64,000 nt of DNA, from positions 1-64,000 of the forward strand of contig NZ_JACJSZ010000009.1 of the NCBI RefSeq assembly GCF_014698445.1, written 5' to 3'. The position numbers and the translations under genes are program-made. The DNA is from Microcystis elabens FACHB-917. Its GTDB lineage: Bacteria > Cyanobacteriota > Cyanobacteriia > PCC-6307 > Cyanobiaceae. Positions 4,222 to 23,080 of this stretch are shown in pieces. The first letter of the stretch is position 1. Every line of letters begins with the position of its first letter. The notes under the pieces are model-generated. The model made no database searches. It was not told where the DNA came from and worked only from the letters and a program-made list of their open reading frames with translations.

Positions 4222-5917
4222 ATGGACCGTTCGCTGCCTCGACCGCGTCCACCGATTCCCTGCCACCGGGGCAGCACGGCGGCACCCGGTGAGGATCCCA
4301 TCGAAATCGCCCCGGGCGTGCGGCTGGCCCACGACCACTTCCAGTGCCATCCTATTTCATCGCCAACGGTTCGGACGGCGTTCTCATCGATCCGGGTTCG
4401 CCGCTCACCATCGAGGGCACCCTGTCCAAGCTGCGCGCCATCACCGATCTCGACGCGATCCGCTGGCTCGTCTTTCACCATTCCGATCCCGACATCTGCG
4501 CCGCCCTGCCCAGGCTCGGAACCGTTCTGAAGCGCCCTGACGTGCAGGTGGTCACCGAATGGCGCGCCCACGCCCTGATCCGCCACTAAGGCCATGGATT
4601 CTCCACCTATCTGGTGGAAGAGAACGGCTGGTGTCTACCCCTGGAAGGAGGACGTCGGCTGGAATTCCAGCTCACGCCGTTTCTCCATTTCCCTGGCGCG
4701 ATGGTGTCCTATGACACGTTCAGCCACACCCTCTTTTCTTCGGACCTGTTCGAAGGTTTCGTCCCCGACAACAGCGTGCTGGAGTCCAGCGATGCGTCCT
4801 ACATCATCAAGAACGCCCGGCCCTTTCATCATCACTACATGCCCAGCCGGGAAATGCTCAGCGCCGGCCTCGCCCGCATCCGCTCCCGCTGGCCACGGAT
4901 CGACCTGATCGCCCCCCAGCACGGCCACATCATTGCCGCTTCGATTATCAATGAGTTGTTCACCGCCATGGCCGCCACCGAATGCGGTGTGTATTGCCTG
5001 GCTGACGCTGACGTGGACCTGAAACGGCTGCTCCGCATCGCCGAGGCCCGGCGCCAGCTGAGCGATGCCCTCATGCACCAGAGCAGCCCTCTGGGCATGG
5101 TCCATGCCATGGCCACCATCCTCGAATCCTCCGGCCAGCCCGGAGAGTGCGAGCTGGCCATGAACATGCCCATCGACGGCTGGACCACCTGGGATGCCTT
5201 CACCGACCATCCCGAACTGCGGGAGCCGCCCGCCGACTGGCACCACATCTGCCTGCTCGGCTGTCCCGCCATGGTGCTGGCCCTGAAGAGCGAGGGGGGG
5301 GGCAGCACACGTTCGATCCCGACATGGAACGGATGCTGCGGGAGTTCACCGAATCGATGCGCCCCTGGGTGGACCATCTGCTGGAGGACCAGCGCAAGGC
5401 CGTCGAGGTGGCCGCCCTCAACCTGGCGGCCCTCACTGATCCGCTCACGGGGCTGGCCAACCGGCGGGCCCTGGCTGAGGCGACGTTGCCGGCCAGCTAT
5501 TCCCTGATCGAGCTGGATCTTGACCATTTCAAAGACGTGAACGACACCTTCGGCCACGAAGCCGGCGACCGGGTGCTCAAGCAGCTGGCCCGGGTGCTGA
5601 ACGCCTCGGTTCGGGAGCAGGACCACACGCATCGTCTAGAAGGTGAGGAGTTCCTGGTGCTGTTGCCGGAAGCCGACCGGGAGACGGCCCTGCTGGTGGC
5701 CGAACGGATCCGCCTCTCGGTGCGGCAGCTCAATCTGGAGGGGGCGGCCCCCGGAGTGCGCATCACGGTCAGCCTGGGGGTCAGCACCAAAAAGGCCTCC
5801 CAGCCGTGCGACTTCTCCCGGCTGATGGAGCAGGCCGATCGGGCCCTTTATGCGGCCAAAGGCTCCGGCCGCGATCGGGTCTGCATGGCCGATGGAACCA
5901 GCCTGGGCTGCGCCTAG
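4222..5917 (+). pseudogene. Broken oxygen-binding di-iron domain / GGDEF protein
   Basis: Three segments in different states together make one protein. (1) From ATG 4222: IEIAPGVRLAHDHFQCH. A one-base loss near 4350 then shifts the frame to SYFIANGSDGVLIDPGSP. (2) An in-frame TAA at 4587-4589 interrupts ALIRH and GHGFSTYLVEENGW. (3) A nine-G run at 5294-5302 shifts the frame before QHTFDPDMERMLREF. The N-terminal part carries the di-iron, metallo-beta-lactamase-like oxygen-sensor motifs (FHHSDPDICAALP, LFSSDLFEGF, HHYMPS, IAPQHGHII). The C-terminal part is a GGDEF domain (LTDPLTGLANRRA, ELDLDHFKDVNDTFGH), but its signature reads LEGEEF rather than GGDEF or GGEEF. An intact version would be an oxygen-responsive diguanylate cyclase or a degenerate relative. 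The lesions could be real decay or base-calling errors at homopolymers; the TAA is harder to explain as an indel error. Confidence 0.85.
5294..5302 (+). repeat. Nine-G homopolymer at GGDEF frameshift
   Basis: GAG is followed by a run giving nine consecutive G in total before CAGCACACG. Seven or ten G would join the sensor and GGDEF frames. Candidate slipped-strand site. Confidence 0.8.
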
Positions 5918-6060
5918 ACCAGGACACCCCCGCCGCCGGCCCGCCCGGGAGTACCCTCCCTGTCTGGACTGTCCCTGGCGGCGGCCAGGAATCCCGGTGC
6001 TTCAACCACCCCGGGGATCGCAACGACCATTTGTTCCGGGGGTTGGCGCCTCGCGCCGTG

Positions 6061-6861
6061 ATGGATCCGCAGAGTGCCCGTTCCTTCCTTCGCGACGACC
6101 GGTCGGACGCCCGCAGGAAGGCGGCGAGCCTACGGATCACGGGTACCGATGTGAGCGGCGAGGCCTCCGGGGCCAGCTGCGTGATCACCACCGACAGCGA
6201 AGGCCGCCGCCTGGCGCGCCAGTCGAGCCATGTGCAGTCGATCGAACTGCGCACCTACGTCTTCCTGGATTCCCTCCAGCCCCAGCTGGCGTCGTACATG
6301 GGCACGGTGTCCCATGGCTTCCTGCCGATCCCGGGGGATGCCTGCCTCTGGCTGGAGGTCTCCCCGGGCATGGCGGTGCACCGGGTCACCGACATCGCCC
6401 TCAAGGCCAGCACAGTGCGGCTCGGCCAGATGGTGGTGGAGCGGGCCTTCGGCTCCCTGGCCCTTTACCACCGCGACCAGAGCAACGTCCTCCACTCCGG
6501 GGACGTGGTCTTGGAGGCGATCGGCAGCCGGGTGGAGCTGCGCAGCCGCTGCGAGGTCACCTGGACCGAGATCATCCGGGCGATCACTCCCGACCACGCC
6601 GTGCTGATCAACCGCCAGAACCGCCGCGGCTCGATGATCCAGGCCGGGATGAGCATGTTCATCCTCGAGACCGAACCGGCGGGCTACGTGCTGATCGCCG
6701 CCAACGAGGCGGAGAAGAGCTCCAACATCACCGTGGTGGACGTCAAGGCGGTGGGGGCCTTCGGCCGGCTCACCCTGGCGGGCAAGGAGGGCGACGTGGA
6801 GGAGGCCGCTTCCGCCGCCATGCGCGCCGTGGCCCAGATCAACGCCGGCGCCCGCGGCTGA
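6061..6861 (+). CDS. csoS1D: Carboxysome shell protein CsoS1D (tandem BMC domains)
   Basis: CsoS1D is a pseudohexameric (trimeric) double-BMC shell protein that stacks face to face and forms a gated pore in alpha-carboxysomes. The 266-residue product from ATG 6061 has a variable N terminus (about 50 residues), then [37 protein letters not shown] and [19 protein letters not shown] of the first BMC domain. The second domain contains [20 protein letters not shown] and [19 protein letters not shown]. These segments match CsoS1D very closely as I know it. As in other picocyanobacteria, it stands a few kilobases upstream of the main cso operon with rdgB in between. The open frame extends further upstream in the wrong context (over the pseudogene end), so ATG 6061 is preferred. 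Confidence 0.96.
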
Positions 6862-6909: not shown

Positions 6910-7590
6910 TCAGGCCAGCCCCAGCAGCAGCCGCAGACCCGGGGCCATCGCCCGGGCCGCCTTGCCGCGGCTGCCGAGCCGGCTCCTGAGATGCTCGCCC
7001 ATCTCGGCATAGCTGCAGCCGGCCTCCCGCACATGGAAGATCGGGTCGTAGCCAGCGCCGGGGCCGGAGGGTTCCCGCAGGATCAGGCCCCGGCAGACCC
7101 CCTCCGACTCCAGCACCACCTCACCGGCGGGGTTGGCCAGGGCCATGGCGCTGACGAAGCTGCCGCCGCGGTACGGGGAATCGCCGAGCTCATGGAGCAG
7201 CCGGTGGATCCGCTCGTGGTCGGTGGGGGCGTAGCGGGCCGAATGGAGACCGGGGCGGCCATCGAGGGCATCCACCTCCAGGCCCGAATCATCCGCCAGC
7301 GACCAGCAGCCGGTGAGCGACGCCACCGTGGAGGCCTTGAGTCGGGCGTTCTCGGCGTAGGTGAGGCCCGTCTCCTCGATCGCCAGATCCCTGGGCTGCT
7401 GGCGCACCTCCAGACCCGCCTCCGGACCCACCCCCTCGAGCATGGCCGTGATCTCGGCCACCTTGTGGGGGTTGCCGCTGGCGATCACCAGCACCGGCGG
7501 GGAAAGGAGTTGGGACAAGCGGGGCCCACGGGGGGCCCCATTGTGGTGCAGCGTGGTGCGGGAAGGGGTGGGGCAGGACGGGTTGAACAT
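6910..7590 (-). CDS. rdgB: Non-canonical purine NTP pyrophosphatase (RdgB/HAM1)
   Basis: The enzyme hydrolyses dITP, ITP and XTP to monophosphates and keeps deaminated purines out of nucleic acids. The core starts at LVIASGNPHKVAEITAML (family motif SGNxxK), followed by EETGLTYAENARLKA, LADDSGLEVDALDGRPGLHS and PSGPGAGYDPIF, all diagnostic. The C terminus reads LGSRGKAARAM. The first 30 residues from ATG 7590 are not conserved, so an alternative GTG/TTG start nearer the SGNPHK motif is possible. It is the only minus-strand gene inside the carbon-concentrating cluster, convergent with csoS1D and divergent from sbtA. The same gene sits at this place in other alpha-cyanobacteria, from memory. 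No direct link to carboxysome function is known to me. Confidence 0.95.
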   Translation of the reverse strand: MFNPSCPTPSRTTLHHNGAPRGPRLSQLLSPPVLVIASGNPHKVAEITAMLEGVGPEAGLEVRQQPRDLAIEETGLTYAENARLKASTVASLTGCWSLADDSGLEVDALDGRPGLHSARYAPTDHERIHRLLHELGDSPYRGGSFVSAMALANPAGEVVLESEGVCRGLILREPSGPGAGYDPIFHVREAGCSYAEMGEHLRSRLGSRGKAARAMAPGLRLLLGLA

Positions 7591-7746
7591 TCCACCCCCG
7601 GAAAGCTCCAGGGTTCCTGCCCCGCGCGGACGATAGGGAATTCGCCACCGATCGGACGGACGGGCGGAGCAACGTTGCGCGACCGGTGACGGTCGACGTG
7701 GCCATTCGCCCCTAGGTTGCCCCCACCCTTGGGGCGCCGGAGGGCG

Positions 7747-8763
7747 ATGCAGTCGAGCCTGGTCCTACAGAACCTTCTCTCCGCGCCGGTTCTCTTCTTC
7801 TTCCTGGGAATCCTGGGGGTGCTGGTGGGCTCCGACCTGGAGATTCCCTCGCCGCTGCCCAAGCTGTTCTCCCTGTATCTGCTGCTGGCCATCGGCTTCA
7901 AGGGGGGCATGGAACTGGCCCAGAGCGGCCTGGGCCCCCAGGTGCTGCTGACGGTCGCGGCGGCGGTGGCGATGTCGCTGCTGGTGCCGCTGAGCAGCTT
8001 CCTGTTCCTGCGGCTGCGCCTCGACGGCTACAACGCCGCCGCCATCGCCGCCTCCTACGGATCGATCAGCGCCGTCACCTTCATCACCGCCGAGAGCTTC
8101 CTCAATGTCGTTGAGGTCAACTTCGATGGCTTCATGGTGGCGGCCCTGGCGCTGATGGAATCCCCGGCGATCGTGGTGGGGGTGATCCTGGCGAGGCTCT
8201 CAGCACCGACGGAGGATGCGGAGATCGCCGCCGATCAGCAGAACGGCGGCGGCAACCTGCGCTGGCGGGAGATTCTCCAGGAGGCCTTTCTGAACGGCTC
8301 GGTGTATCTGCTGATCGGCAGCCTGGTGATCGGATATGTGGTGGCGGCCTTCAGTCCGGCGGGCCTGGCGAAGATGGATCCCTTCACCGAAAAACTGTTC
8401 TACGGAGCCCTGTGCTTTTTCCTGCTCGACATGGGGATCGTGGCGGCCCAGCGGCTGCGGGACCTGAAGCAGGCGGGGGCTTTCCTGATCGGCTTCTCCC
8501 TGCTGGCCCCTCCCCTGCACGCCCTGCTGGGGCTGCTGGTGAGCCTGCTTCTGGGGCTGGGCCAGGGCAACACCCTGCTGTTCATGGTGCTCTGCGCCAG
8601 CGCTTCCTACATCGCCGTGCCGGCGGCGATGCGCATGACCGTCCCCCAGGCGAACCCGAGCCTCTACATCTCCACCGCGCTGGGTCTCACCTTCCCGTTC
8701 AATGTGGTGATCGGGATTCCCCTCTACATGGCGCTGAGCCGTCAGTTCATTCCCCTCGGCTGA
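7747..8763 (+). CDS. sbtA: Sodium-dependent bicarbonate transporter SbtA
   Basis: SbtA imports bicarbonate with sodium across the plasma membrane and feeds the carboxysome. The 338-residue protein starts MQSSLVLQNLLSAPVLFFFLG at ATG 7747, with ggagg a few bases upstream. It is almost entirely hydrophobic helices, in two inverted halves of about five segments each. AIAASYGSISAVTFITAESF and ASASYIAVPAAMRM are the conserved substrate-site stretches of the family. Between the halves lies a cytoplasmic loop (APTEDAEIAADQQNGGG) where regulatory sites are expected. It is followed 48 bases later by sbtB, the usual regulator pair. It is divergent from rdgB across about 156 bases that should hold its promoter. 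Confidence 0.95.
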   Translation: MQSSLVLQNLLSAPVLFFFLGILGVLVGSDLEIPSPLPKLFSLYLLLAIGFKGGMELAQSGLGPQVLLTVAAAVAMSLLVPLSSFLFLRLRLDGYNAAAIAASYGSISAVTFITAESFLNVVEVNFDGFMVAALALMESPAIVVGVILARLSAPTEDAEIAADQQNGGGNLRWREILQEAFLNGSVYLLIGSLVIGYVVAAFSPAGLAKMDPFTEKLFYGALCFFLLDMGIVAAQRLRDLKQAGAFLIGFSLLAPPLHALLGLLVSLLLGLGQGNTLLFMVLCASASYIAVPAAMRMTVPQANPSLYISTALGLTFPFNVVIGIPLYMALSRQFIPLG

Positions 8764-8811: not shown

Positions 8812-9093
8812 ATGAAGCGCATCGATCTCTTTCTCAGCGAACGGGAACTCAACCGTGTCTGCCGCACCCTCATCGCGGCCGGGGCGAAGGGCTATTCGGT
8901 GATGCGCCATGTGACCGGCATGGGCCCCTCGGGCGAGATCTCCGAGGCGATGGACTTCAGCGGGCTGGGGGCCAATGCCCATGTGATCGTGTTCGTGGAG
9001 GACGATCTGCTCGCGGCCGTCGGCACCGCCCTGCGTCCCCTGCTGAAGCGCTACGGCGGGGTCGGGTTCGTCTCCAGCGCCGAGCCGCTCTGA
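8812..9093 (+). CDS. sbtB: PII-like carbon sensor SbtB
   Basis: SbtB is a trimeric PII-like protein that binds adenine nucleotides (cAMP, AMP, ADP, ATP) and gates SbtA. The 93-residue product begins MKRIDLFLSERELNRVCRTL. AAGAKGYSVMRHVTGMG corresponds to the start of the T-loop, and ANAHVIVFVEDDLLAAV to the conserved core strand. It ends at SSAEPL and has no C-terminal cysteine hairpin of the CGPxGC type found in some SbtB proteins, so redox control of nucleotide hydrolysis through that loop is not expected. The 48-base gap to sbtA indicates co-transcription. Confidence 0.92.
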   Translation: MKRIDLFLSERELNRVCRTLIAAGAKGYSVMRHVTGMGPSGEISEAMDFSGLGANAHVIVFVEDDLLAAVGTALRPLLKRYGGVGFVSSAEPL

Positions 9094-11620: not shown

Positions 11621-13993
11621 ATGGCCAGAACCACCAGTCGGGAAGCAGCTCTGGAGCGCCGCAAGGCCCTCACCAACGGCGGCAAGAAAGCTTCCGCCCA
11701 GTTCATGTCCTCCCCGGGACGGGTGCGTACGGCTGCCGACGCCCGGCGCAGCCGCACCGAAGCGGAGACGGCCGCTCCGGCGGCCCCTGCCCCCGCCCCC
11801 ACCCGTGTCCCGGCCGCGCCGCGGCGGAGTCCTTCGGCCTCTCTGGCGTCGACCTCGGCCTCCGGCCATCGCAGCAACGCCAAGCCGTTGGCGAACCCCA
11901 GCCGGAATCTGGTGCTGGAGCGCCGTGAAGCCCTCTCCCGCCGCGGCAAGCGGGCCGACACCTCCAGCGACCGCACCCGCCAGGAGGTGATGCGCGCCGC
12001 AAAGGCCACCGCCGCCAAGACCAGCGCCCCCGCCGCGGCCGCCGCCCCCGCCGCCGCCGCCGCCCCCGCCCTGAGCGGCAACGGGTCCGGCCTGGGCTCG
12101 TCCCTGGCCAGCCGCGGCGGCGGCGAGCGCCGCAACGGCACCAAGCGCACCGCCCAGCACAACCCCAGCCGGGCCATTGTCATGGCCCGCCGTGAGGCCC
12201 TCTCCAAGCGGGGCAAGTCCGCCAACGCCCCCACCAGTTCCGTCGCCGCCTCGGTGGCCCGCCAGGCGAACCCCGACATGACCAGTCGCGAACTGGCCCA
12301 GAAGGTGCGCGAGCTGAAGTGCAAGGTGGGCTCCGCCGGCTGCGCCCGCAGCGGCGGCAGCCGGCCCACCGGCCCCCGCCGCGGTCAGGCCAAGATCGAT
12401 GCCGCCGCCGATGCCCACTGGAAGGTTGGGGCCAGCCAGACCCTCTCAGGCCAGACCGTCACCGGCACCCAGGCCAACCGATCCCCCCGCACCACCGGCA
12501 ACGAGGCGGCCACCTGCCGCACCATCACCGGCACCGAGTACCTCGGCGCCGAGGTCTTCCAGACCTTCTGCGGCACCCAGCCCTCCACCCCGATCCAGCC
12601 GCCCAAGGTGCGGGTCACCGACACCAGCCACGGCAACCGGGTCACCGGCAACGAGGTGGGCCGCAGTGAGAAGGTCACCGGCGACGAGCCCGGCACCTGC
12701 AAGAACGTCACCGGCACCGAATACATCTCCGCCAACCAGTCGGCCGCCTGGTGCGGCGGCGTCAACCCCTCCGTGCGCAAGGTGGGCCGCAGCCAGACCC
12801 TGGGCGGCCAGCCCGTGAGTGGCGTACTGGTCGGCCGCAGCGAAAAGGTCACCGGCGACGAGCCCGGCTCCGGCCGTCAGCTCACCGGTGACCAGTACAT
12901 CGGCGCCGAACCTCCGGCCCCCGGCCGGGCCCCCACCAAGGTGAGCAGCCTGCAGACCCTCCGCGGCACCGGCATCACCGGTACCCATGTGGGCCGCAGC
13001 GAGCATGTCACCGGCGACGAACCGGGCTCCTGCCGGCTGATCACCGGCGACGAGTACATCGGCAGCCAGCAGTACGAGCGCTTCTGCGGCACCAAGCCGG
13101 CCCCGGAGGCGGCCAAGGTGGGCTTCAGCGTCACCAACAGGGCGATAGTGGTGAGCGGCACCCGCACCGGCCGGAGCGAGAAGGTGACCGGCGACGAGCC
13201 CGGCACCTGCAAGGCCGTCACCGGCACCCCCTACGCCGGTGTCGAGCAGGCCGGCGCCTGGTGCCCCTCCGACCGGGTGAAGGAGATCCGCCAGCGCACC
13301 CCGGTGCGCATGGGCACCGTGATGACCGGCATCCAGCCGGGGATCGGTGGTGTCATGACCGGTGCCGAGCGGGGCGCCTGCGAGGACGTGACCGGCACCC
13401 CTTACGTGGGTCCCGACCAGCTGCGGGAGACCTGCGGCGCCGCCGGCAGCCAGGACCCCGACTTCCCCCAGCCGCTGGCCAGCCAGCCCTGGCAGCAGTT
13501 CAGCGTCCAGTCCCCGGCCCGGGCCGCCCAGAGCGCCCGCCAGCGGACCGGTGGGGTCACCGGCAACAGCTACGAGCAGGGCAACCGCATCACCGGTCCC
13601 TTCGACATGGCCGCCGACAAGGTCACCGGCACCGAGCAGTTCCGCTTCGACCGTCCCGGCCAGGAACGGGTGCGCCTCCGCCCGCCTGCGGCGGCAGCGA
13701 CCGTGACCGCGGACGAGGATGCCCGTCCCACCTCCCGGGTCACAGGCGAGGGCATCTCCGCCGGTCTCAACATCACCGGCGACGACTGGGACCGGGGCAA
13801 GCACGTCACCGGCACCGAAGGGGCCTCGGCCCGCCGCCGCAACCCCAGCCGTGTCGGCCCGATGTCGGCGATGCCGGGCTTCCAGCCCAAGCGCAACGAG
13901 TCCCTGCCGGAACCCACCAACAAGATCACCGGATCCAGCGGCAGCACCAGCGCCGGCTCCCTGATCACGGTCTCCGGCGGAGCCCGCGGCTGA
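11621..13993 (+). CDS. csoS2: Carboxysome scaffold protein CsoS2
   Basis: CsoS2 is the disordered, repetitive linker that binds RuBisCO through N-terminal motifs and the shell through its middle and C-terminal regions. The 790-residue protein shows at least three N-type motifs (EAALERRKALTNGGKKA near 8-24; NPSRNLVLERREALSRRGK near 92-110; NPSRAIVMARREALSKRGK near 183-201). A related fourth copy, TSRELAQKVRELKCK, lies near 227-241. Six M repeats follow, each with the pattern VTGxxxGRSxxVTGDExGxCxxVTGTxY and several with a cysteine near the end. The C-terminal region contains repeated ITG/VTG units and ends NKITGSSGSTSAGSLI. Ala-rich linkers separate the N motifs. I see no clear programmed frameshift site as in some proteobacterial csoS2, so a single isoform is likely. 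ATG 11621 was chosen because the first N motif begins at once. Confidence 0.97.
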   Translation: MARTTSREAALERRKALTNGGKKASAQFMSSPGRVRTAADARRSRTEAETAAPAAPAPAPTRVPAAPRRSPSASLASTSASGHRSNAKPLANPSRNLVLERREALSRRGKRADTSSDRTRQEVMRAAKATAAKTSAPAAAAAPAAAAAPALSGNGSGLGSSLASRGGGERRNGTKRTAQHNPSRAIVMARREALSKRGKSANAPTSSVAASVARQANPDMTSRELAQKVRELKCKVGSAGCARSGGSRPTGPRRGQAKIDAAADAHWKVGASQTLSGQTVTGTQANRSPRTTGNEAATCRTITGTEYLGAEVFQTFCGTQPSTPIQPPKVRVTDTSHGNRVTGNEVGRSEKVTGDEPGTCKNVTGTEYISANQSAAWCGGVNPSVRKVGRSQTLGGQPVSGVLVGRSEKVTGDEPGSGRQLTGDQYIGAEPPAPGRAPTKVSSLQTLRGTGITGTHVGRSEHVTGDEPGSCRLITGDEYIGSQQYERFCGTKPAPEAAKVGFSVTNRAIVVSGTRTGRSEKVTGDEPGTCKAVTGTPYAGVEQAGAWCPSDRVKEIRQRTPVRMGTVMTGIQPGIGGVMTGAERGACEDVTGTPYVGPDQLRETCGAAGSQDPDFPQPLASQPWQQFSVQSPARAAQSARQRTGGVTGNSYEQGNRITGPFDMAADKVTGTEQFRFDRPGQERVRLRPPAAAATVTADEDARPTSRVTGEGISAGLNITGDDWDRGKHVTGTEGASARRRNPSRVGPMSAMPGFQPKRNESLPEPTNKITGSSGSTSAGSLITVSGGARG

Positions 13994-14000
13994 ATCCCTG

Positions 14001-15539
14001 ATGCCCCGCCGCCCGGCCCCCACCCTCCGATCCCCCGCTCCCCGAGCCCCCCGGCGTCGGCCCGACGCCTCCTCCGGTCCCGATCTTTCGCGGCGCCTTG
14101 CGGCGGTGCGACGCGGCCAGGGGGCCACCGGCAGCGCCCATCCGCTCACCGACCAGGCCGCCAATGCCGCCCTGGAGAGCTACGACCGGGGCGTCAAGGA
14201 GGCCTTCGACCGGATCGTGCCCGTGCTCAAGCGGCTCTCCGCCCTGCAGCACGAGGATGACTTCGTGGAGCGGGCCCAGGCCCTGGCCCAGGCGGAACTC
14301 GGCTTCAGCCTGCCCCTGCCGATCCTGGAGAAGGCCTGGGTCAGCCAGCTCGACATGCGCAGCCTGTTCGCCTGGTGCGTCTTCGAGACCTACGAGCAGA
14401 CCAGCGACGGTTTCTTCCGCGACGATCCGCTCCACGGCCAGCCAGGGAGTGCGGCCGCCGAGGACTTCAACGCCTTCCTGCTGTCCTGCGGCTTCCACCT
14501 GCTGGATGTGACCCCCTGCGCCGACGGTCGTCTGGCCCATGCCATCGCCTTCGCCCTGCGGCTGCCCTTCAGCTCGGTGCGGCGCCGGCCCCATGCCGGC
14601 GCTCTGTTCGATGTGGAGAACACGGTCAACCGCTGGGTCAAGACCGAGCACCGCCGCTACCGCGAGGGCGTCCCCAACCCCGCCCACGACGACACCCGCT
14701 ACCTGAAGGTGGTGCTTTACCACTTCAGTTCCCTCGACCCGGCCCACGAGGGCTGCGCCGCCCATGGCAGCGACGACGCCCTGGCGGCCAGCTGCGGGCG
14801 CCAGCGGCTGATGGAGTTCCAGCAGGCCGTGGAGAACAGCTTCTGCTGCGGCGCCTCCGTCGACCTGCTGCTGCTGGGGATCGACACCGACACCGACGCC
14901 ATCCGGGTGCACGTGCCGGGCATGGACGGCAGCACGCGCCTGGATCACTGGCTCGATGCCGCCACGGTGTACGAGGCCACGCGCCATCTGCACCCCGAGG
15001 AGGCGCGGCGGAGGATCGCCGAATTGGCGGAAGACGCGGCGGCCAGCACCCCGGATCCTGGGATGGTGCGCCTGATCGCCCGGTTGCTGGAGCACAACAT
15101 CTCCCAGATCGACTATGTGCGCGAGTACCACGGCGGCCACTACGCCGATGCGGGCCATGCCGAGCGCTTCATCGGCGTGGGCATCGGCTTCAAGGAGATC
15201 CACCTGCGCAACCTCACCTACTTCGCCTACATGGACACGGTCGAGGAAGGTGCGCCCGACATGGACGTGGGCGTGAAGATCTTCAAGGGCCTCAACGTCT
15301 CCCGGGGTCTGCCGGTTCCGGTGGTGGTGCGCTTCGACTACAACGGCAAGGTACCCGGTGCGCGGGAGCGGGCCGTGCGCCACGCCCGGCGTGTGCAAGA
15401 GGCGATCGAGAACCGCTACCCCGACCTCTTCGCCCAGGGCCTGCTCCATGCCCTGCTCACCGTGCGCGACCAGGAGCTCCATGCCCCCGCCGAGGCGGTA
15501 GGTTCCACCATCACGATCACCACCGCAGGAGGGCACTGA
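14001..15539 (+). CDS. csoSCA: Carboxysomal carbonic anhydrase CsoSCA
   Basis: CsoSCA dehydrates bicarbonate to CO2 inside the shell. The 512-residue protein has a basic, Pro/Arg-rich N terminus (about residues 1-40), which in this family contacts RuBisCO. An alpha-helical domain follows, then the catalytic domain, with LDVTPCADGRLAHAIAFALR (zinc-ligand cysteine plus the Asp-Arg pair). GCAAHGSDDALAASCG carries the expected zinc-ligand His and Cys. The C-terminal half is the inactive duplicated domain. It begins 7 bases after the csoS2 stop and ends 2 bases before csoS4A, so it is translated within the operon. Zinc ligands are assigned by motif, not by alignment. Confidence 0.96.
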   Translation: MPRRPAPTLRSPAPRAPRRRPDASSGPDLSRRLAAVRRGQGATGSAHPLTDQAANAALESYDRGVKEAFDRIVPVLKRLSALQHEDDFVERAQALAQAELGFSLPLPILEKAWVSQLDMRSLFAWCVFETYEQTSDGFFRDDPLHGQPGSAAAEDFNAFLLSCGFHLLDVTPCADGRLAHAIAFALRLPFSSVRRRPHAGALFDVENTVNRWVKTEHRRYREGVPNPAHDDTRYLKVVLYHFSSLDPAHEGCAAHGSDDALAASCGRQRLMEFQQAVENSFCCGASVDLLLLGIDTDTDAIRVHVPGMDGSTRLDHWLDAATVYEATRHLHPEEARRRIAELAEDAAASTPDPGMVRLIARLLEHNISQIDYVREYHGGHYADAGHAERFIGVGIGFKEIHLRNLTYFAYMDTVEEGAPDMDVGVKIFKGLNVSRGLPVPVVVRFDYNGKVPGARERAVRHARRVQEAIENRYPDLFAQGLLHALLTVRDQELHAPAEAVGSTITITTAGGH

Positions 15540-16157: not shown

Positions 16158-16835
<678 letters not shown>

Positions 16836-16840
16836 TCCCC

Positions 16841-17308
16841 ATGGACGCCGCCCATCCGCGCGTCCTCGGCTACCTCGGCCGCGCGTTGAGTCTCGAGCTG
16901 TCCGCCGTGCAGCAGTACATGACCCAGGCCTCCCTCGTGGAGCTCTGGGGCGACACCCACGCCGCCGAACGGTTCCGCCAGGAAACCGTCGAGGAGATGC
17001 GGCACGCCGAACGCCTGGTACAGCGCATGCTGCAGCTCGGGGTGGCCCCCGCCGCCTCCCAGCTGCGCCCGGTCGCCCACGCCGCCGACCTGGAGGGTCT
17101 GCTGCGCCTGAATGCGGTCCTCGAGGAGGACCTGATCCAGCACTACGGCGAGGCGATGCGCTTCTGCCTGCTGATCGGCGATGGCAACAATGAAACCTTC
17201 TTCCGGGCTCTGCGGGACGAAGAACAGCAGCATGGGGAAGAGCTCGCCGCCTGGCTCGGCAGTCTTGGCGCCGCCCCGTCCAGGGCCCTGCAACGGGCCA
17301 CCTTCTGA
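16841..17308 (+). CDS. Bacterioferritin-like protein of the carboxysome operon
   Basis: A ferritin-superfamily protein of 155 residues. By eye, all di-iron ligands of bacterioferritin are present at equivalent spacing: Glu19, Glu52, His55, Glu95, Glu128 and His131. Met53 falls at the position of the bacterioferritin haem ligand. Motifs: LSLELSAVQQYMTQ, EEMRHAERLVQRML and RDEEQQHGEELAAWL. It starts 5 bases after csoS1E and lies 14 bases before ndhF4, so it belongs to the operon. Such genes recur in alpha-carboxysome loci, but the role is not established. Possibilities are iron or oxygen handling near RuBisCO, or supply of iron for NDH-1. It could be a ferritin-like protein that does not store iron. 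Confidence 0.88.
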   Translation: MDAAHPRVLGYLGRALSLELSAVQQYMTQASLVELWGDTHAAERFRQETVEEMRHAERLVQRMLQLGVAPAASQLRPVAHAADLEGLLRLNAVLEEDLIQHYGEAMRFCLLIGDGNNETFFRALRDEEQQHGEELAAWLGSLGAAPSRALQRATF

Positions 17309-17322
17309 GGTCCCTCCCCCTC

Positions 17323-19167
17323 TTGCCGGACACCCTTCCCCTGTCGATCCAGCTCAGCTGGCTGATTCCCCTCTACGGGTTCAGCGGCATGCTGCTGTCG
17401 CTGCCATGGGCGGCGGGCTGGATCCGGCGCAACGGCCCCCGTCCGGCGGCCTATCTCAATCTCCTGGTCACCCTGCTGGCGGTGCTGCACGGCAGCCTGG
17501 TGCTGCAGGCCGTGCTGGCCCTCGGCCCCCAGCATCTCGACATCGCCTGGTTCTCGGCGGCGGATCTGGATCTGCGCATCGGTTTCGACCTCTCGCTCAC
17601 CAATCTGGCCGCCCTGGAACTGGTGACCGGCCTGAGCCTGGTGGGCCAGGTGTTCACCCTCGGCTACCTCGACAAGGAATGGTCCCTGGCCCGCTTCTAC
17701 GCCCTGCTCGGCTTCTTCGAAGGGGCCATGGCCGGGGTGGTGCTGAGCAGCAACCTGTTCATGAGCTATTTCCTGCTGGAGATGCTCACCCTCTCCACCT
17801 ACCTGCTGGTGGGCTTCTGGTACGCCCAGCCCCTGGTGGTCACCGCCGCCCGGGATGCCTTCCTGACCAAGCGGGTGGGGGATGTGCTTCTGCTGATGGG
17901 GGTGGTGACGCTGTCGGCCTGGGCCGGATCGCTGGAGTTCAACGATCTCTACGCCTGGTCGGCCAATGAGACCCTGCCGGCCCTCGGCGCTTCGCTGCTC
18001 GGCCTGGGCCTGATCGCCGGCCCGATGGGCAAGTGCGCCCAGTTCCCGATGCATCTGTGGCTGGATGAGGCGATGGAGGGCCCGAATCCGGCCTCGATCC
18101 TGCGCAATTCCGTGGTGGTGACCTGCGGCGCCGTGGTGCTTCTCAAGGTGATGCCGCTGCTGCTGATCTCCCCGGCGGCCATCGACGTGCTGCTGGCGGT
18201 GGGCACGATCAGCGCCCTGGGCGGCGCCCTGGTGGCCATCTCCCAGGTCGACCTCAAGCGGGCCTGCTCCTACTCCACCACCTCCTATCTGGGGCTTGTG
18301 TTCATCGCCATCGCCCTGCAGCAGCCCTTCATCGCCCTGCTGCTGCTCTTCTCCCATGCCCTGGCCAAGGCCGTGCTGTTCATGAGCGTCGGCAGCATCA
18401 TCGCCACCACCAACTGCCAGGACCTCACCGAACTGGGCGGCCTCGGCTCCCGCATGCCCGCCACCACCACCGGCTTCCTGGTGGGGGCCGCGGGCCTCAC
18501 CGGCCTGCTGCCCCTGGGCTGCTTCTGGAGCTTCGGCCTGATGGTGGAGGGGCTGGGCTCGCGGGCCCCGTTCTTCGCCGCCGTGGTGCTGCTCACCAAC
18601 GCCCTGACGGCCCTCAACCTCACCCGGGTCTACCGCCAGGTGTTCCTGGGCGCGCCCCACCCCAAGACCCGGCGGACCCCGGAGGTCAACTGGCTGATGG
18701 CCCTGCCCATGGTCAGCGTGGCCGTGCTGGTGCTGGTGACGCCCCTGGCCATGGCCCGCATCGACCGGGTCCCCGGCATCGGCGCCTTCTCGGGGGGCAC
18801 CGCCCTGGTTCTGGTGGGCAGCGGCCTGGCCGGTCTGCTGGTGGGCAGCCTGGTGCCCCTGGACACCTTCTGGTCCCGCTCCGTGCTGCGGCCCCTGCGG
18901 GTCCTGCAGGACCTGCTGGCCTTCGACTTCTACACCGACCGCATCTACCGGGCCACGATCGTGGCCTTCGTGGCCGGCCTGGCCCGCCTCACCAACGGGT
19001 TCGACCAGCTGGTGGTCAACGGCATGGTCAACCGCATCGCCACCGTTTCGATGGGCTCGGCCGAGAGCCTCAGGCTGGGGGTGAGCGGCCGCCTGCAGAC
19101 CTACGTCTTCACCGTCGTGGCCGCCATCGTGCTGCTGGTGGGCAGCCTCTCCTGGCTGGGGGGCTGA
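17323..19167 (+). CDS. ndhF4: NDH-1 subunit NdhF4 (constitutive CO2 uptake complex)
   Basis: A proton-pumping antiporter-like membrane subunit of the NDH-1MS' complex that drives CO2 hydration to bicarbonate. The 614-residue protein has many predicted membrane helices. GPMGKCAQFPMHLWLDEAME and GPNPASILRNSVVVTCGAVV are the NdhF/NuoL core motifs, and LKRACSYSTTSYLGLVFIA the next helix. The C terminus has a long amphipathic segment followed by a last helix (VFTVVAAIVLLVGSLSW). The start is TTG 17323; no strong ribosome site is visible, so coupling to the upstream gene is possible. It is followed 7 bases later by ndhD4, and chpX makes the F4 assignment. Confidence 0.93.
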   Translation: MPDTLPLSIQLSWLIPLYGFSGMLLSLPWAAGWIRRNGPRPAAYLNLLVTLLAVLHGSLVLQAVLALGPQHLDIAWFSAADLDLRIGFDLSLTNLAALELVTGLSLVGQVFTLGYLDKEWSLARFYALLGFFEGAMAGVVLSSNLFMSYFLLEMLTLSTYLLVGFWYAQPLVVTAARDAFLTKRVGDVLLLMGVVTLSAWAGSLEFNDLYAWSANETLPALGASLLGLGLIAGPMGKCAQFPMHLWLDEAMEGPNPASILRNSVVVTCGAVVLLKVMPLLLISPAAIDVLLAVGTISALGGALVAISQVDLKRACSYSTTSYLGLVFIAIALQQPFIALLLLFSHALAKAVLFMSVGSIIATTNCQDLTELGGLGSRMPATTTGFLVGAAGLTGLLPLGCFWSFGLMVEGLGSRAPFFAAVVLLTNALTALNLTRVYRQVFLGAPHPKTRRTPEVNWLMALPMVSVAVLVLVTPLAMARIDRVPGIGAFSGGTALVLVGSGLAGLLVGSLVPLDTFWSRSVLRPLRVLQDLLAFDFYTDRIYRATIVAFVAGLARLTNGFDQLVVNGMVNRIATVSMGSAESLRLGVSGRLQTYVFTVVAAIVLLVGSLSWLGG

Positions 19168-19174
19168 TCCGGCC

Positions 19175-20707
19175 ATGCTGAGCGCCCTGCTGCTGATTCC
19201 CTTCGCCGGCGCCCTCGGCCTGCTCTGCTGGCCTGGGGAACTGGCCACCGAGCGCATCCGTCGCGCCGCCCTGGCGCTGCTGGGCCTGCAGCTGCTCTGG
19301 AGTTTGCGGGTGCTGCTGGCCTTCGACCCCGGCCAGGCGGGCCTTCAACTGCAGGAGTCGTTCGCCTGGGTCGACAGCATCGGCCTCGACTACCGCCTCG
19401 GCGTCGATGGCCTGGCCATGCCCCTGGTGCTGGTGAACGCCGCCCTCACCCTGGTGTCGGGGATCTGCACCCGCGACCTCAGCCAGCGCCCCCGGCTCTA
19501 CTTCGCCCTGCTGCTGACGATCAGCGGAGCGGTCAACGGGGCGTTCCTGTCCGAGAACCTGCTGCTGTTCTTCCTCTTCTATGAGCTGGAGCTGATTCCC
19601 CTCTGGCTGCTGATCTCCATCTGGGGCGGCGCCAACCGCAGCTATGCCGCCACCAAGTTCCTGATCTTCACGGCCGTCTCCGGGGTGCTGATCCTGGGCG
19701 CCTTTCTCGGCCTCTCCCTGTTCACCGGCCAGGCCGACTTCAGCATCAACCCGGTGACCACCACCCAGCTGGGCATGGGCACCCAGCTGGCCCTGCTGGG
19801 GGCGCTGCTGATCGGCTTCGCCATCAAGATCCCCCTTGTGCCGTTTCACACCTGGCTGCCCGACGCCCACACCGAAGCCTCCACCCCCGTGTCGGTGCTG
19901 CTGGCGGGGGTGCTGCTGAAACTGGGTACCTACGGCCTGCTGCGCTTCTGCCTGGGGATGTTCCCCGAGGCCTGGGCCCTGCTCGCCCCCTGGCTGGCGG
20001 GCTGGGCGGCGGTGTCGGTGCTGTACGGCTCCCTGGCGGCCATCGCCCAGCGGGACATGAAGCGGATGGTCGCCTACAGCTCGGTGGGGCACATGGGCTA
20101 CATCCTGCTGGCGGCGGCGGCCGCCACCCCGGTGAGCATGCTGGGGGCCGTCTTCCAGATGGTCAGCCATGGGCTGATCTCCGCCCTGCTGTTCCTGCTG
20201 GTGGGCATCGTCTACCGCAAGACCCGCACCCGGGACCTGGAGGTGCTGCGGGGCCTGCTCAACCCCGAGCGGGGCCTGCCGTTCACCGGCACCCTGATGA
20301 TCCTGGGGGTGATGGCCAGTGCGGGCATGCCCGGCATGGCCGGTTTCATCTCAGAATTCCTGGTGTTCCGCGGCAGCCTGGGCGCCTTCCCGGTGGCCAC
20401 CCTGCTTTGCATGGTGGGATCAGGCCTCACGGCGGTGTATTTCCTGCTGCTGGTCAACCGGGCCTTCTTCGGGCGCCTGGCGGTGACCCCGCCCAGCGGC
20501 GATCCGGTGGCGGACTCCCGCCTGGAGGTGCGGCTGCCGGCGGTGGCCCTGCGGGAAACCCTGCCCGCCCTGGCCCTGGCCAGCGGGGTGGTGGCCCTGG
20601 GGGTGCTGCCCTTCGGCCTGGGCCGGCTCAGCGAACAGGCCACCACCGCCATGGCCCGGTTGCCGGCTCTTCTCGCGACGCTCCAGGGGGCGGCGCCGCT
20701 GTCATGA
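19175..20707 (+). CDS. ndhD4: NDH-1 subunit NdhD4
   Basis: The second antiporter-like subunit of the CO2-uptake NDH-1 complex, 510 residues. ENLLLFFLFYELELIPLWLL has the conserved Glu of helix 5. KIPLVPFHTWLPDAHTEAST and RDMKRMVAYSSVGHMGYILL are diagnostic for NdhD/NuoM. Its stop overlaps the start of chpX by 4 bases (ATGA), showing translational coupling and supporting assembly of NdhD4, NdhF4 and ChpX in one complex. The 4 subtype rests on context rather than alignment. Confidence 0.94.
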   Translation: MLSALLLIPFAGALGLLCWPGELATERIRRAALALLGLQLLWSLRVLLAFDPGQAGLQLQESFAWVDSIGLDYRLGVDGLAMPLVLVNAALTLVSGICTRDLSQRPRLYFALLLTISGAVNGAFLSENLLLFFLFYELELIPLWLLISIWGGANRSYAATKFLIFTAVSGVLILGAFLGLSLFTGQADFSINPVTTTQLGMGTQLALLGALLIGFAIKIPLVPFHTWLPDAHTEASTPVSVLLAGVLLKLGTYGLLRFCLGMFPEAWALLAPWLAGWAAVSVLYGSLAAIAQRDMKRMVAYSSVGHMGYILLAAAAATPVSMLGAVFQMVSHGLISALLFLLVGIVYRKTRTRDLEVLRGLLNPERGLPFTGTLMILGVMASAGMPGMAGFISEFLVFRGSLGAFPVATLLCMVGSGLTAVYFLLLVNRAFFGRLAVTPPSGDPVADSRLEVRLPAVALRETLPALALASGVVALGVLPFGLGRLSEQATTAMARLPALLATLQGAAPLS

Positions 20708-21864
20708 GACCGATCCCCCGCTCCCCCAAACCACCCCTGACCTACGCCGGCGGGCGCCCCACCAGCGACGATCTGGTGGAGACCCTGCTGGCCGGAGACA
20801 CCCTGCTGGCCGAATCCCCCGACCACCTGCTCCAGGTGGTGGATGTGCTGGAGAGCTACGGCGAGGTGCTGGATGCCTACAGCATCAACCTCATCTACCA
20901 GGCGGAAAAGCAGTTTCTCAATCCCTTCCCGGTGTTCCGCTTCCTCGACGGCGACCTCAGCCCTGCAAAGATCTGGCGCCACCTGCTGCACGACCGGATC
21001 AACTTCGAGTATGCGGAGTACTGCCAGAAGGCGATGCTCTGGCACGGCACCGGAGGCCTCGATGCCTATCTCGACAGCGAGGCCTTCGCCGCCAACTGTG
21101 CCGCCATCGTCGCCCGCAAGACCCGGCGCGATCCCCTGCTGGCGACGCTCAACCCGCTGTTCCCCCAGTTCCTGAACGAACTGATCCGCTCGGCGGCCAC
21201 CACCCACGCGCTGGGCCAGTTCTGGCGGGTGATGAGCGATCTGTTCCTCGATCTGGCCCGGGCCGAGCGGGACGGGCGCGTCGATTCGATCGCCGCGGTG
21301 GTGACCTTCATCAAGGAGGGCCTGGTGGCGGCGGCGGCGGCGCCGATCAACTACGCGGTGGAGATCGCCGACACCTCCTTCTGGGTGCTTCCCCCCGAGG
21401 CCGGTCTCACCTTCCTGGGGGATGTGGCCGTGCCCTATGTGGAGGCGGTGTTCCTGCGCGGCACCCCGTTCCTCGGCACCGTGTCGTTCAACGCCCAGGC
21501 CCAGCAGATCTCCCCCGACCAGGCCCAGTTCATGTACGGCGCCCTCTACGCCGACCCGCTGCCCACCATGGGATCGGGCATCCCGCCCAGCCTGCTGATG
21601 CAGGACATGTACCGTCACCTCCCCGAACGGCTGCGCAACCGATACCTGGCGGGCATCCGCGGCGACGGGGACATGCGGGTGAAGATCTGCATGAGTTTCC
21701 AGAAGGCGATGTTCTGCGTCACCAACGCGGCCATCGCCGGCACCTTCCCCCACCCGCTCAGCACCGAGGTGCCAGCGGAGCAGGCCGCCAACCGGGCCCA
21801 TGCCGCTGCCTGGGCCGCCCGCCTCTGCGTGGCCCGCACCGACTGCCTCGACGATCCGGGCTGA
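20704..21864 (+). CDS. chpX: CO2 hydration protein ChpX/CupB
   Basis: ChpX (CupB) is the zinc-containing, carbonic-anhydrase-like subunit docked on NDH-1 that converts cytosolic CO2 to bicarbonate. The 386-residue product contains QVVDVLESYGEVLDAYSINL, FLNPFPVFRFLDGD, VTFIKEGLVAAAAAPINYAV and RGDGDMRVKICMSFQKAMFC, all typical. It is linked to ndhD4 by an ATGA overlap and lies 15 bases before acRAF. The choice of ChpX over ChpY/CupA rests on its place in an alpha-cyanobacterial cso locus and on the F4/D4 partners; from sequence alone the two are hard to separate. Confidence 0.93.
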   Translation: MRPIPRSPKPPLTYAGGRPTSDDLVETLLAGDTLLAESPDHLLQVVDVLESYGEVLDAYSINLIYQAEKQFLNPFPVFRFLDGDLSPAKIWRHLLHDRINFEYAEYCQKAMLWHGTGGLDAYLDSEAFAANCAAIVARKTRRDPLLATLNPLFPQFLNELIRSAATTHALGQFWRVMSDLFLDLARAERDGRVDSIAAVVTFIKEGLVAAAAAPINYAVEIADTSFWVLPPEAGLTFLGDVAVPYVEAVFLRGTPFLGTVSFNAQAQQISPDQAQFMYGALYADPLPTMGSGIPPSLLMQDMYRHLPERLRNRYLAGIRGDGDMRVKICMSFQKAMFCVTNAAIAGTFPHPLSTEVPAEQAANRAHAAAWAARLCVARTDCLDDPG

Positions 21865-21879
21865 TCTAGGGTCGGACCC

Positions 21880-22125
21880 ATGGATCAGCCCTGGACCCGA
21901 CGGCCCCGTCCCGATCGGCTCGAGCGCCGCATCGAGTTCGATGACTACGAAAGCACCCGCGGCTTCCTGGAGCGCCTGAACGGGCTCTCGGAGCAGGAGG
22001 GCCGCTTCCCCGACATCAGCTTCGGCCGCACCTACGTGAACCTCACCGTGCGGGCCGAAGCCGACGAGGACCCCATCGGCGAACCGGAGGAAACCTTCGC
22101 GCGGGCCATCGATGGTCTCCTCTGA
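21880..22125 (+). CDS. acRAF: Alpha-carboxysome RuBisCO assembly factor (acRAF)
   Basis: A small protein of 81 residues related to pterin-4a-carbinolamine dehydratase, acting as a RuBisCO assembly chaperone. [35 protein letters not shown] and [11 protein letters not shown] match the acRAF form. The catalytic histidine motif of true pterin dehydratases is absent, so enzyme activity is not expected. It overlaps cbbX by 14 bases, pairing assembly factor and activase. Confidence 0.9.
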
Positions 22126-23080
22126 GGGCACCGCTGCCGACGGGGACGACGGGGAGGCGCCCCAGGAGACGCGGCTGGTGGATCTGCGGGCGGCCTACGA
22201 CGCCGCCGGCATCAAGGAGGTGCTCGACCAGCTCGACCGGGAGCTGATCGGCCTGCGGCCGGTGAAGGCCAGGATCCGCGAGATCGCCGCCCTGCTGGTG
22301 ATCAACCGGGCCCGTACCCAGGTGGGGCTCGACACGGCGCCCCCCAGCCTGCACATGTCGTTCACCGGCCGCCCCGGCACCGGCAAGACGACGGTGGCCG
22401 AGCGGATGTCGAAGATCCTGCACGGCCTGGGCTATGTGCGCAAGGGCCATGTGGTGACGGCCACCCGCGATGACCTGGTGGGCCAGTACATCGGCCATAC
22501 CGCCCCCAAGACCCGGGAGATGCTCAAGAAGGCGATGGGCGGCGTGCTGTTCATCGACGAGGCCTACTATCTCTACCGGCCGGAGAACGAGCGGGACTAC
22601 GGCGCCGAGGCGATCGAGATCCTTTTGCAGGTGATGGAGAACAACCGCAACGACCTGGTGGTGATCTTCGCCGGCTACAAGGAGCGGATGGATGTCTTCT
22701 ACCAGAGCAATCCGGGCCTCTCCTCGCGGGTGGCCAACCACATCGATTTTCCTGATTACACCGCCAGCGAACTCCTGGAGATCGCCCAGCTGATCCTGGC
22801 GGCGGAGAACTACCGCTTCAGCCCCGAGGCCGCCGCCGCCTTCGCCGAATACATCCAGCGGCGCATGCAGCTGCCCTTCTTCGCCAATGCCCGCTCGATC
22901 CGCAACGCCATCGACCGGGCCCGGATGCGCCAGGCCAACCGCCTGTTCAGCGGCATGGGGCGGGCCCTCTCCAAGACCGACCTGATGACGATCGAGGCCG
23001 AGGACATCACCGCCAGCCGGGTGTTCCACGGGGAGGTGGAGGGGCTGGATCCGGCCCGGCCCCTCACCGGCGCTGGCTGA
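22112..23080 (+). CDS. cbbX: RuBisCO activase CbbX (AAA+)
   Basis: CbbX is an AAA+ ATPase that threads the large-subunit C terminus to remove inhibitory sugar phosphates from RuBisCO. The 322-residue protein has Walker [17 protein letters not shown], Walker [14 protein letters not shown], a pore-loop candidate around LVGQYIGHT, and [19 protein letters not shown] near the C terminus as sensor 2/arginine region. The first 25 residues are acidic and variable. It is the last gene of the cluster. Its stop and the opposite dnaA stop lie 3 bases apart inside the palindrome GCTGAGCCTCAGC. Confidence 0.96.

Follow-up and report, generated by a model that had tools for sequence, protein, structure and literature searches.

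A ferritin-like protein encoded in cso operons keeps a bacterioferritin-type di-iron site and often ends in a conserved C-terminal tail

The ferritin-like protein encoded in the alpha-carboxysome (cso) operon of Microcystis elabens FACHB-917 is a member of a separate ferritin subfamily that is linked to cso operons. Its gene lies in a stretch of 64,000 nucleotides (contig NZ_JACJSZ010000009.1, positions 1 to 64,000, forward strand), here called the window, where a first-pass annotation had described a bacterioferritin-like protein with complete ferroxidase ligands inside the operon. That observation is right and the link with the operon is known, but the bacterioferritin label is too narrow; a conserved C-terminal tail is the new, testable part of the finding. 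The association of bfr with the cso operon is already in print: in their accessible text, Marin 2007 and Axen 2014 report it, and Marin 2007 sees the gene as encoding an iron-storage protein co-transferred with the operon. The carboxysome-linked bfr of Paulinella, Synechococcus WH5701 and chemoautotrophs has, as far as the available portions of the sources go, the same operon place in related taxa. The bfr of Marin 2007 and Axen 2014 is probably the same gene family as the window ferritin, a comparison made by descriptions and, for Nitrococcus mobilis (L080) only, by sequence. The label used in the accessible text of both papers is bacterioferritin, and the non-haem state, missing helix and tail are not described there.

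The open reading frame is a real gene rather than a chance ORF, because it is matched by Pfam, by PDB sequences and by fold and is present in 36 of 37 same-genus genomes (own genome counted; the sole miss is a genome 64% complete). The match to Pfam Ferritin (PF00210; E 2.8e-18, 66.6 bits against a cut-off of 24.5), together with a four-helix bundle, places the protein in the ferritin superfamily, and its best PDB sequence matches are solved bacterioferritins (1.4e-16). The spacing first given for the gene was accurate, with the csoS1E stop at 16835 falling 5 nt before it and the ndhF-type ORF beginning 14 nt after it (Table 1). For three of the neighbours we use the names csoS1E, ndhF4 and ndhD4 as working labels. 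The operon also encodes RbcL, which aligns with the annotated form I RbcL of Thiodictyon. There the ferritin gene lies in a plasmid-borne cso operon and is annotated merely as a "ferritin-like domain-containing protein", and the acRAF counterpart is annotated as a 4a-hydroxytetrahydrobiopterin dehydratase. The N-terminus of CsoS1E is predicted to be unstructured, according to the accessible text of PMC10689251.

Table 1. Positions in the window of the ferritin-like gene, its sequence features and neighbouring genes
Feature	Position	Strand	Basis or comment
csoSCA, shell carbonic anhydrase	14001..15539	+	TIGR02701, 664.6 bits
csoS1E-like shell protein gene, directly 5' of ferritin	16158..16835	+	NCBIfam: CsoS1-family with N-terminal extension
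Ferritin-like di-iron protein gene, 155 aa, cso-linked subfamily	16841..17308	+	ATG to TGA; ORF list, Pfam, PDB, NCBIfam, alignments
Codon of ligand E19 (E. coli Bfr E18)	16895..16897	+	Present in 140/140 relatives
Codons E52, M53, R54, H55	16994..17005	+	Ligands E52 and H55: 140/140 each
Codon of ligand E95	17123..17125	+	139/140 relatives
Codons E128-Q-Q-H131	17222..17233	+	Ligands E128 140/140, H131 138/140
Linker, residues 145-151, sequence-variable, low-confidence, where Bfr has helix E	17273..17293	+	Alignment, model
Conserved C-terminal tail R-A-T-F	17294..17305	+	RAxF in 76/140 relatives
ndhF-type subunit (ndhF4), secondary linkage	17323..19167	+	NCBIfam NdhF3-type; TTG start putative
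NuoM/NdhD-type subunit (ndhD4)	19175..20707	+	NCBIfam
chpX-type CO2 hydration protein (ChpXY)	20707..21864, putative start	+	TIGR01964
acRAF-like (pterin dehydratase-like) ORF	21880..22125	+	Weak NCBIfam match, 20.6 bits
cbbX	22112..23080	+	TIGR02880

The claim that all six di-iron ligands are intact holds for the window protein, and nearly all of its 140 distinct relatives, 62 from cyanobacteria and 78 from elsewhere (identical proteins counted once), retain them. E19, E52, H55, E95, E128 and H131 align without gaps, at a constant offset of +1, with E18, E51, H54, E94, E127 and H130 of E. coli Bfr, residues that we take to be its ferroxidase ligands. A one-residue insertion shifting the second Glu-x-x-His pair is ruled out by the same gapless alignment. 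Y26, W36, Q24, Y102 and W138 are each found in 140 of 140 relatives, and the retention of the ligands and Tyr26 in nearly all of them points to redox chemistry. The haem position fared differently from the ligands. Met53 does sit where bacterioferritin has its haem-binding Met52, as first noticed, but it carries no weight since the residue is not conserved: the relatives have Met in 89 cases, Leu in 49, Ile in one and Lys in one, and the position changed at least 28 times on a quick family tree (139 of 140 rows scored). Leu cannot act as a haem ligand, and therefore haem is no requirement of the family. We rejected on these counts the designation of the window protein as a haem protein on the strength of Met53.

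In the strict sense the protein is not a bacterioferritin, because it scores below the cut-off of the TIGR00754 equivalog profile and because two structure models lack the fifth helix. The window protein reached 58.3 bits against a cut-off of 125.55, compared with 279.7 for E. coli Bfr and 187 for Pseudorhodobacter Bfr as controls. All 62 members of alignment A4 (61 of 76 listed references plus the window protein; L080 and L094 lie outside that list) matched the profile, the best with E 2.1e-27, or about 96 bits by interpolation against the same cut-off. AlphaFold2 models of the window protein (mean pLDDT 92.1) and of the Thiocapsa imhoffii relative (L138; 91.3) have four helices each, at residues 6-35, 39-65, 84-111 and 115-144 in the former. 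The fifth (E) helix is absent from both monomer models, in which helix D ends at residues 144 and 143 and the tail has a pLDDT of about 44-64. Bacterioferritins nevertheless ranked first in fold comparisons with Foldseek (E 1.6e-8) and VIA-align 2, and the predicted fold resembles that of E. coli bacterioferritin 1bcf (Z 21.7, rmsd 2.0 over 150 residues).

The six ferroxidase ligands and the equivalents of Tyr25 and Trp35 are thus shared with bacterioferritin (Bfr, TIGR00754; E. coli b3336), whereas the cso-linked protein differs in its low profile score, optional haem Met and lack of a fifth helix in the models, and has a signature of W138, Y102 and Q24, a C-terminal RAxF and cso linkage. Several E. 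coli pore and Bfd-contact positions are altered as well. L68 and E81 of P. aeruginosa BfrB, which we take to be Bfd contact residues, correspond to A69 and A82 in the window protein, and a true cyanobacterial Bfr (L065) lacks both too; N17, W133 and N148 are likewise absent from both proteins. These changes weigh little because the true Bfr differs at many of the same positions, so that the only clean separators from Bfr are the profile score, the optional Met and the fifth helix. A search of the own genome for Bfd (PF04324) gave no match, and a control search did pick it up in 7 of the 14 genomes tried, E. coli among them. The own genome does hold three other ferritin-fold genes at separate loci on other contigs, judged by eye to be FTN-like (L149 and L151) and Dps-like (L150), which share only the ferritin superfamily with the cso-linked protein and are likely to encode housekeeping iron proteins.

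Encapsulin cargo ferritins offer a second comparison, as ferritin-like servants of a protein compartment, which here would be the carboxysome; they use C-terminal targeting peptides. The window protein did not match the encapsulin cargo profiles EncB_fam (NF058679) and TIGR04535 at E 0.01. Weak matches occurred among the 62 members of A4 (36 for EncB_fam and 25 for TIGR04535; best E 5.9e-9 and 1.8e-8), and true Bfr also weakly matches EncB_fam. This weak similarity hints that compartment-associated ferritins may share features.

The link with carboxysome genes, for which the first-pass annotation had no explanation, is real and old, with the gene in the same slot in cyanobacterial and in mainly gammaproteobacterial loci. 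We assessed linkage in 63 cyanobacterial loci and in a genome_contigs scan covering the best 80 of 260 relatives, as ranked with an alignment headed by Thiodictyon. Genes for cso shell, scaffold or carbonic-anhydrase proteins lie on 79 of these 80 mainly gammaproteobacterial fragments; the exception (L084) has only 104 nt upstream, with acRAF downstream. Its contig is labelled "Halobacteria archaeon", carries cbbR besides acRAF and encodes a ferritin nearly identical to that of a gammaproteobacterial locus (L083), and is probably mis-binned. Among the cyanobacterial loci (window genome included; two loci from one genome), cso genes are upstream in 62 of 63, and the exception (L050) has only 8 nt upstream and keeps the operon genes downstream. 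In most proteobacterial loci the gene immediately downstream of the ferritin gene is acRAF, and the start of acRAF lies at +462 to +762 in 78 of the best 80 of 260; L128 has no detected acRAF, and that of the cyanobacterial L137 comes after the NDH genes. Nine stretches from viral contigs scanned for relatives did not encode one.

The ferritin gene may not be universal in cso operons. The cso operon on plasmid 1 of Nitrobacter hamburgensis (L148) has no annotated ferritin in the PLSDB gene tables, which are incomplete; 420 nt without a listed gene (11712-12131) separate its last BMC gene from an acRAF-like gene. In a sample of 300 host-family genomes, a match was found in 126 (93 of 197 good genomes; 18 of 59 genera) and none in 174, some of them incomplete. 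Eight of these (1.7 to 2.4 Mb, from 20 listed of the 174) were checked, and all eight have csoSCA with no ferritin nearby, so the operon persists without the protein. There the operon closes up, through csoS1E-acRAF junctions in five genomes and csoS1E-ndhF4, csoS4B-ndhF4 and csoS4B-acRAF junctions in one each. These gene orders indicate that ferritin and ndhF4 come and go independently.

The C-terminus of the protein is conserved beyond its surroundings. The strict RAxF ending is present in 46 of 62 cyanobacterial and 30 of 78 other relatives and missing from 64 of the 140. In cyanobacteria, Arg occupies position -4 in 53 of 62 sequences, Ala position -3 in 52 and Phe position -1 in 50 (3.2 to 3.4 bits), against 0.9 to 1.6 bits at positions -6 to -13; in the other 78 relatives the counts are 40, 42 and 39 (1.6 to 1.8 bits), against 0.5 to 1.0 bits at positions -6 to -14. 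Six different codons specify the tail Arg in cyanobacteria, which shows that it is the protein and not the DNA that is conserved here. Allowing the wider pattern [RGK]AxF brings the total to 81 of 140 (46 cyanobacterial and 35 other), compared with 2 of 6,223 non-ferritin ORFs of at least 100 codons from the window and 99 loci. The presence of the tail, scored by a relaxed pattern, switched at least 16 times on a tree from which the tail columns had been left out. RATF is the ending in the window's group and RAYF in many Chromatiaceae. In the accessible open-licence PMC literature we found no description of a C-terminal motif on a cso-linked ferritin.

Members with the strict tail mostly have 16-18 residues after W138 (range 16-29), a distance that approximates the length of the lost helix E, whereas in members lacking the relaxed tail this stretch runs to between 4 and 48 residues, in many cases 4 to 10. 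Such a near-constant spacing would suit docking and cage assembly equally well. We also searched for residues that track the tail in RbcL, RbcS, CsoSCA, CsoS4A, CsoS4B, CsoS1, acRAF and CsoS1D, with CsoS2 left out. The search comprised 1,498 column-residue tests, of which the top 25 were taken further, and with at most three independent pairs on supported branches it had no power; no partner was inferred among these proteins.

Taken as a whole, we tentatively favour a non-haem ferroxidase dedicated to the alpha-carboxysome, which would be docked by its tail and would remove Fe2+ and oxidants near Rubisco. This proposal starts from what the sequences and models indicate: the predicted fold, the ligands, the operon linkage, the fixed position, the conservation of the tail and the absence of the gene from some lineages that keep the operon; the carboxysome as target we infer from the operon alone. 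A ferritin-like subfamily inherited with the cso operon would have kept a Bfr-type di-iron site without needing haem, and its four-helix body would bear a flexible linker ending in R-A-x-F. The tail might dock the protein on a carboxysome component, either the shell or Rubisco/CsoS2 cargo, where the di-iron site could oxidise Fe2+ with O2 or H2O2 and so may keep Fe2+ and oxidants from Rubisco. Fe2+ is able to take the place of Mg2+ in Rubisco and can also fuel Fenton chemistry. The kept di-iron site and tyrosine, the optional haem, the predicted loss of the fifth helix, the lack of a Bfd match, and an added disordered linker whose end is fixed fit a site-directed ferroxidase better than a store. 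With still more reserve, we suggest that RAxF may be an ancient targeting peptide of cyanobacteria and gammaproteobacteria that recruits the non-haem ferroxidase to the alpha-carboxysome, where it would shield Rubisco from Fe2+ and oxidants.

An iron or oxygen partner of the adjoining NDH-1 CO2-uptake complex (ndhF4-ndhD4-chpX), the other role first proposed, would account for the 14 nt gap to ndhF4 in the window and for the presence of ndhF4 downstream of ferritin in 62 of 63 cyanobacterial loci. Gene order across the scan loci and in three cyanobacterial genomes gives that proposal no support, however: 70 of 79 non-cyanobacterial loci among the best 80 of 260 have no NdhF match, and the other nine have no more than weak matches (83-100 bits; the cyanobacterial L137 scores 852), none of them adjoining ferritin. 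The cyanobacterial L051 (G140) has the order csoS1E-ferritin-acRAF-cbbX with the NDH genes missing between; its ferritin still ends in RATF, although H131 is replaced by Leu and the haem position is occupied by Ile. Conversely, L163 and L167 have ndhF4 and no ferritin. The NDH-1 role is thus largely refuted by gene orders in cyanobacterial and non-cyanobacterial loci; we rejected it and consider it very improbable. Another possibility is that a common iron-storage (bacterio)ferritin became trapped in the cso operon and has been transferred along with it while serving no function in carboxysomes; this draws on the bacterioferritin fold, the intact ferroxidase ligands, the dispensability of the gene in operons that lack it and the view of Marin 2007, in its accessible text, of a co-transferred iron store. 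Yet nearly every locus examined, across two phyla, has the gene in the same slot, so hitchhiking alone would be insufficient to maintain it; moreover, it encodes a distinct subfamily with its own tail and no fifth helix in the models, in a host with three other ferritin-fold genes and no Bfd match. We therefore regard a passenger ferritin as somewhat unlikely.

Two further alternatives concede a tie to the carboxysome and differ in what the tail or the metal does. Instead of a docking tag, RAxF could be a cage-assembly element that, for example, plugs a fourfold or twofold interface, which would leave a carboxysome-linked ferritin of unassigned location. In bacterioferritin helix E lines the fourfold axis, and the tail stands in the place of this helix at a fairly constant distance from W138; VIA-align also matches the model to bacterioferritin chains as far as residue 151. 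But even the relaxed tail is absent from 53 of 140 members, and many of these stop 4 to 10 residues after W138, so that an assembly role would have to be optional, and the monomer models leave the tail unplaced; we judge this unlikely. The protein might instead be a ferritin-fold factor for assembly or maintenance of Rubisco or carboxysomes, acting beside acRAF, with metal that is structural or secondary. Its gene adjoins that of the Rubisco assembly factor acRAF in 78 of 80 scan loci (the best 80 of 260), the conserved tail suggests protein-protein contact, and removal of acRAF from a reconstituted CCM causes a growth defect, as the accessible text of PMC7714395 reports. Against such a role, almost every sequence retains the six iron ligands and Tyr26, and acRAF directly follows csoS1E or csoS4B in 6 of 8 checked operons without ferritin and is therefore independent of it. 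An assembly factor is distinctly unlikely.

If the tail does dock the protein as in the favoured ferroxidase reading, iron or oxidant control would join carboxysome biology, engineered carboxysomes that omit the ferritin may be short of a protective part, and a four-residue C-terminus would become a candidate loading tag for alpha-carboxysomes. Were the targeting reading true, the ferritin would be an overlooked accessory cargo or shell partner; even without docking, the bacterioferritin label gives way to a testable family definition. The gene sits in cso operons of two phyla, yet "ferritin" and "bfr" are absent from the main text of a 2026 alpha-carboxysome review, and from the main texts of carboxysome stoichiometry and structure papers (supplements outside the search). 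The accessible text on purified Cyanobium carboxysomes (PMC10689251) names nine building proteins; neither word occurs in its main text, which concerns a strain that may or may not carry the ferritin gene. This silence counts against the favoured reading, as do the 64 of 140 relatives without the strict tail and the operons that do without the gene. Published expression data, which speak for it, come from the bfrA of A. ferrooxidans, a putative member of the subfamily. According to the available portions of the sources, bfrA lies in cbb1, which RT-PCR with a bfrA primer showed to be a single transcription unit (PMC2942843), and cbb1 RNA falls as CO2 rises, as measured on other genes of the operon (PMC6458275).

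We built a quick ferritin tree from 144 columns, with SH-aLRT support only and no bootstrap, in which the cyanobacteria form one clade (98) whose sister is a group of 18 rows, mostly purple sulphur bacteria (92). Nitrococcus falls further out than the purple sulphur rows; the accessible text of Marin 2007 had it nearest, on the data of that time. An RbcL tree (57 rows, 6 of them cyanobacterial, midpoint root) neither confirmed nor refuted this sister group.

Several ORFs 5' of the cso operon were assigned by eye. Just upstream of it lie an SbtA-like bicarbonate transporter (7717-8763) and then an SbtB-like PII protein (8812-9093), the latter with only a weak NCBIfam match, to an unrelated-looking model. 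A Ham1/RdgB-like ORF (6910-7590, minus strand) also lies 5' of the cso genes; a "Ham1" protein is mentioned for purified alpha-carboxysomes in the accessible text of the 2026 review. Also 5' of the sbtAB-like genes, an ORF at 5806-6861 (putative start) has a C-terminal part that resembles CsoS1D.
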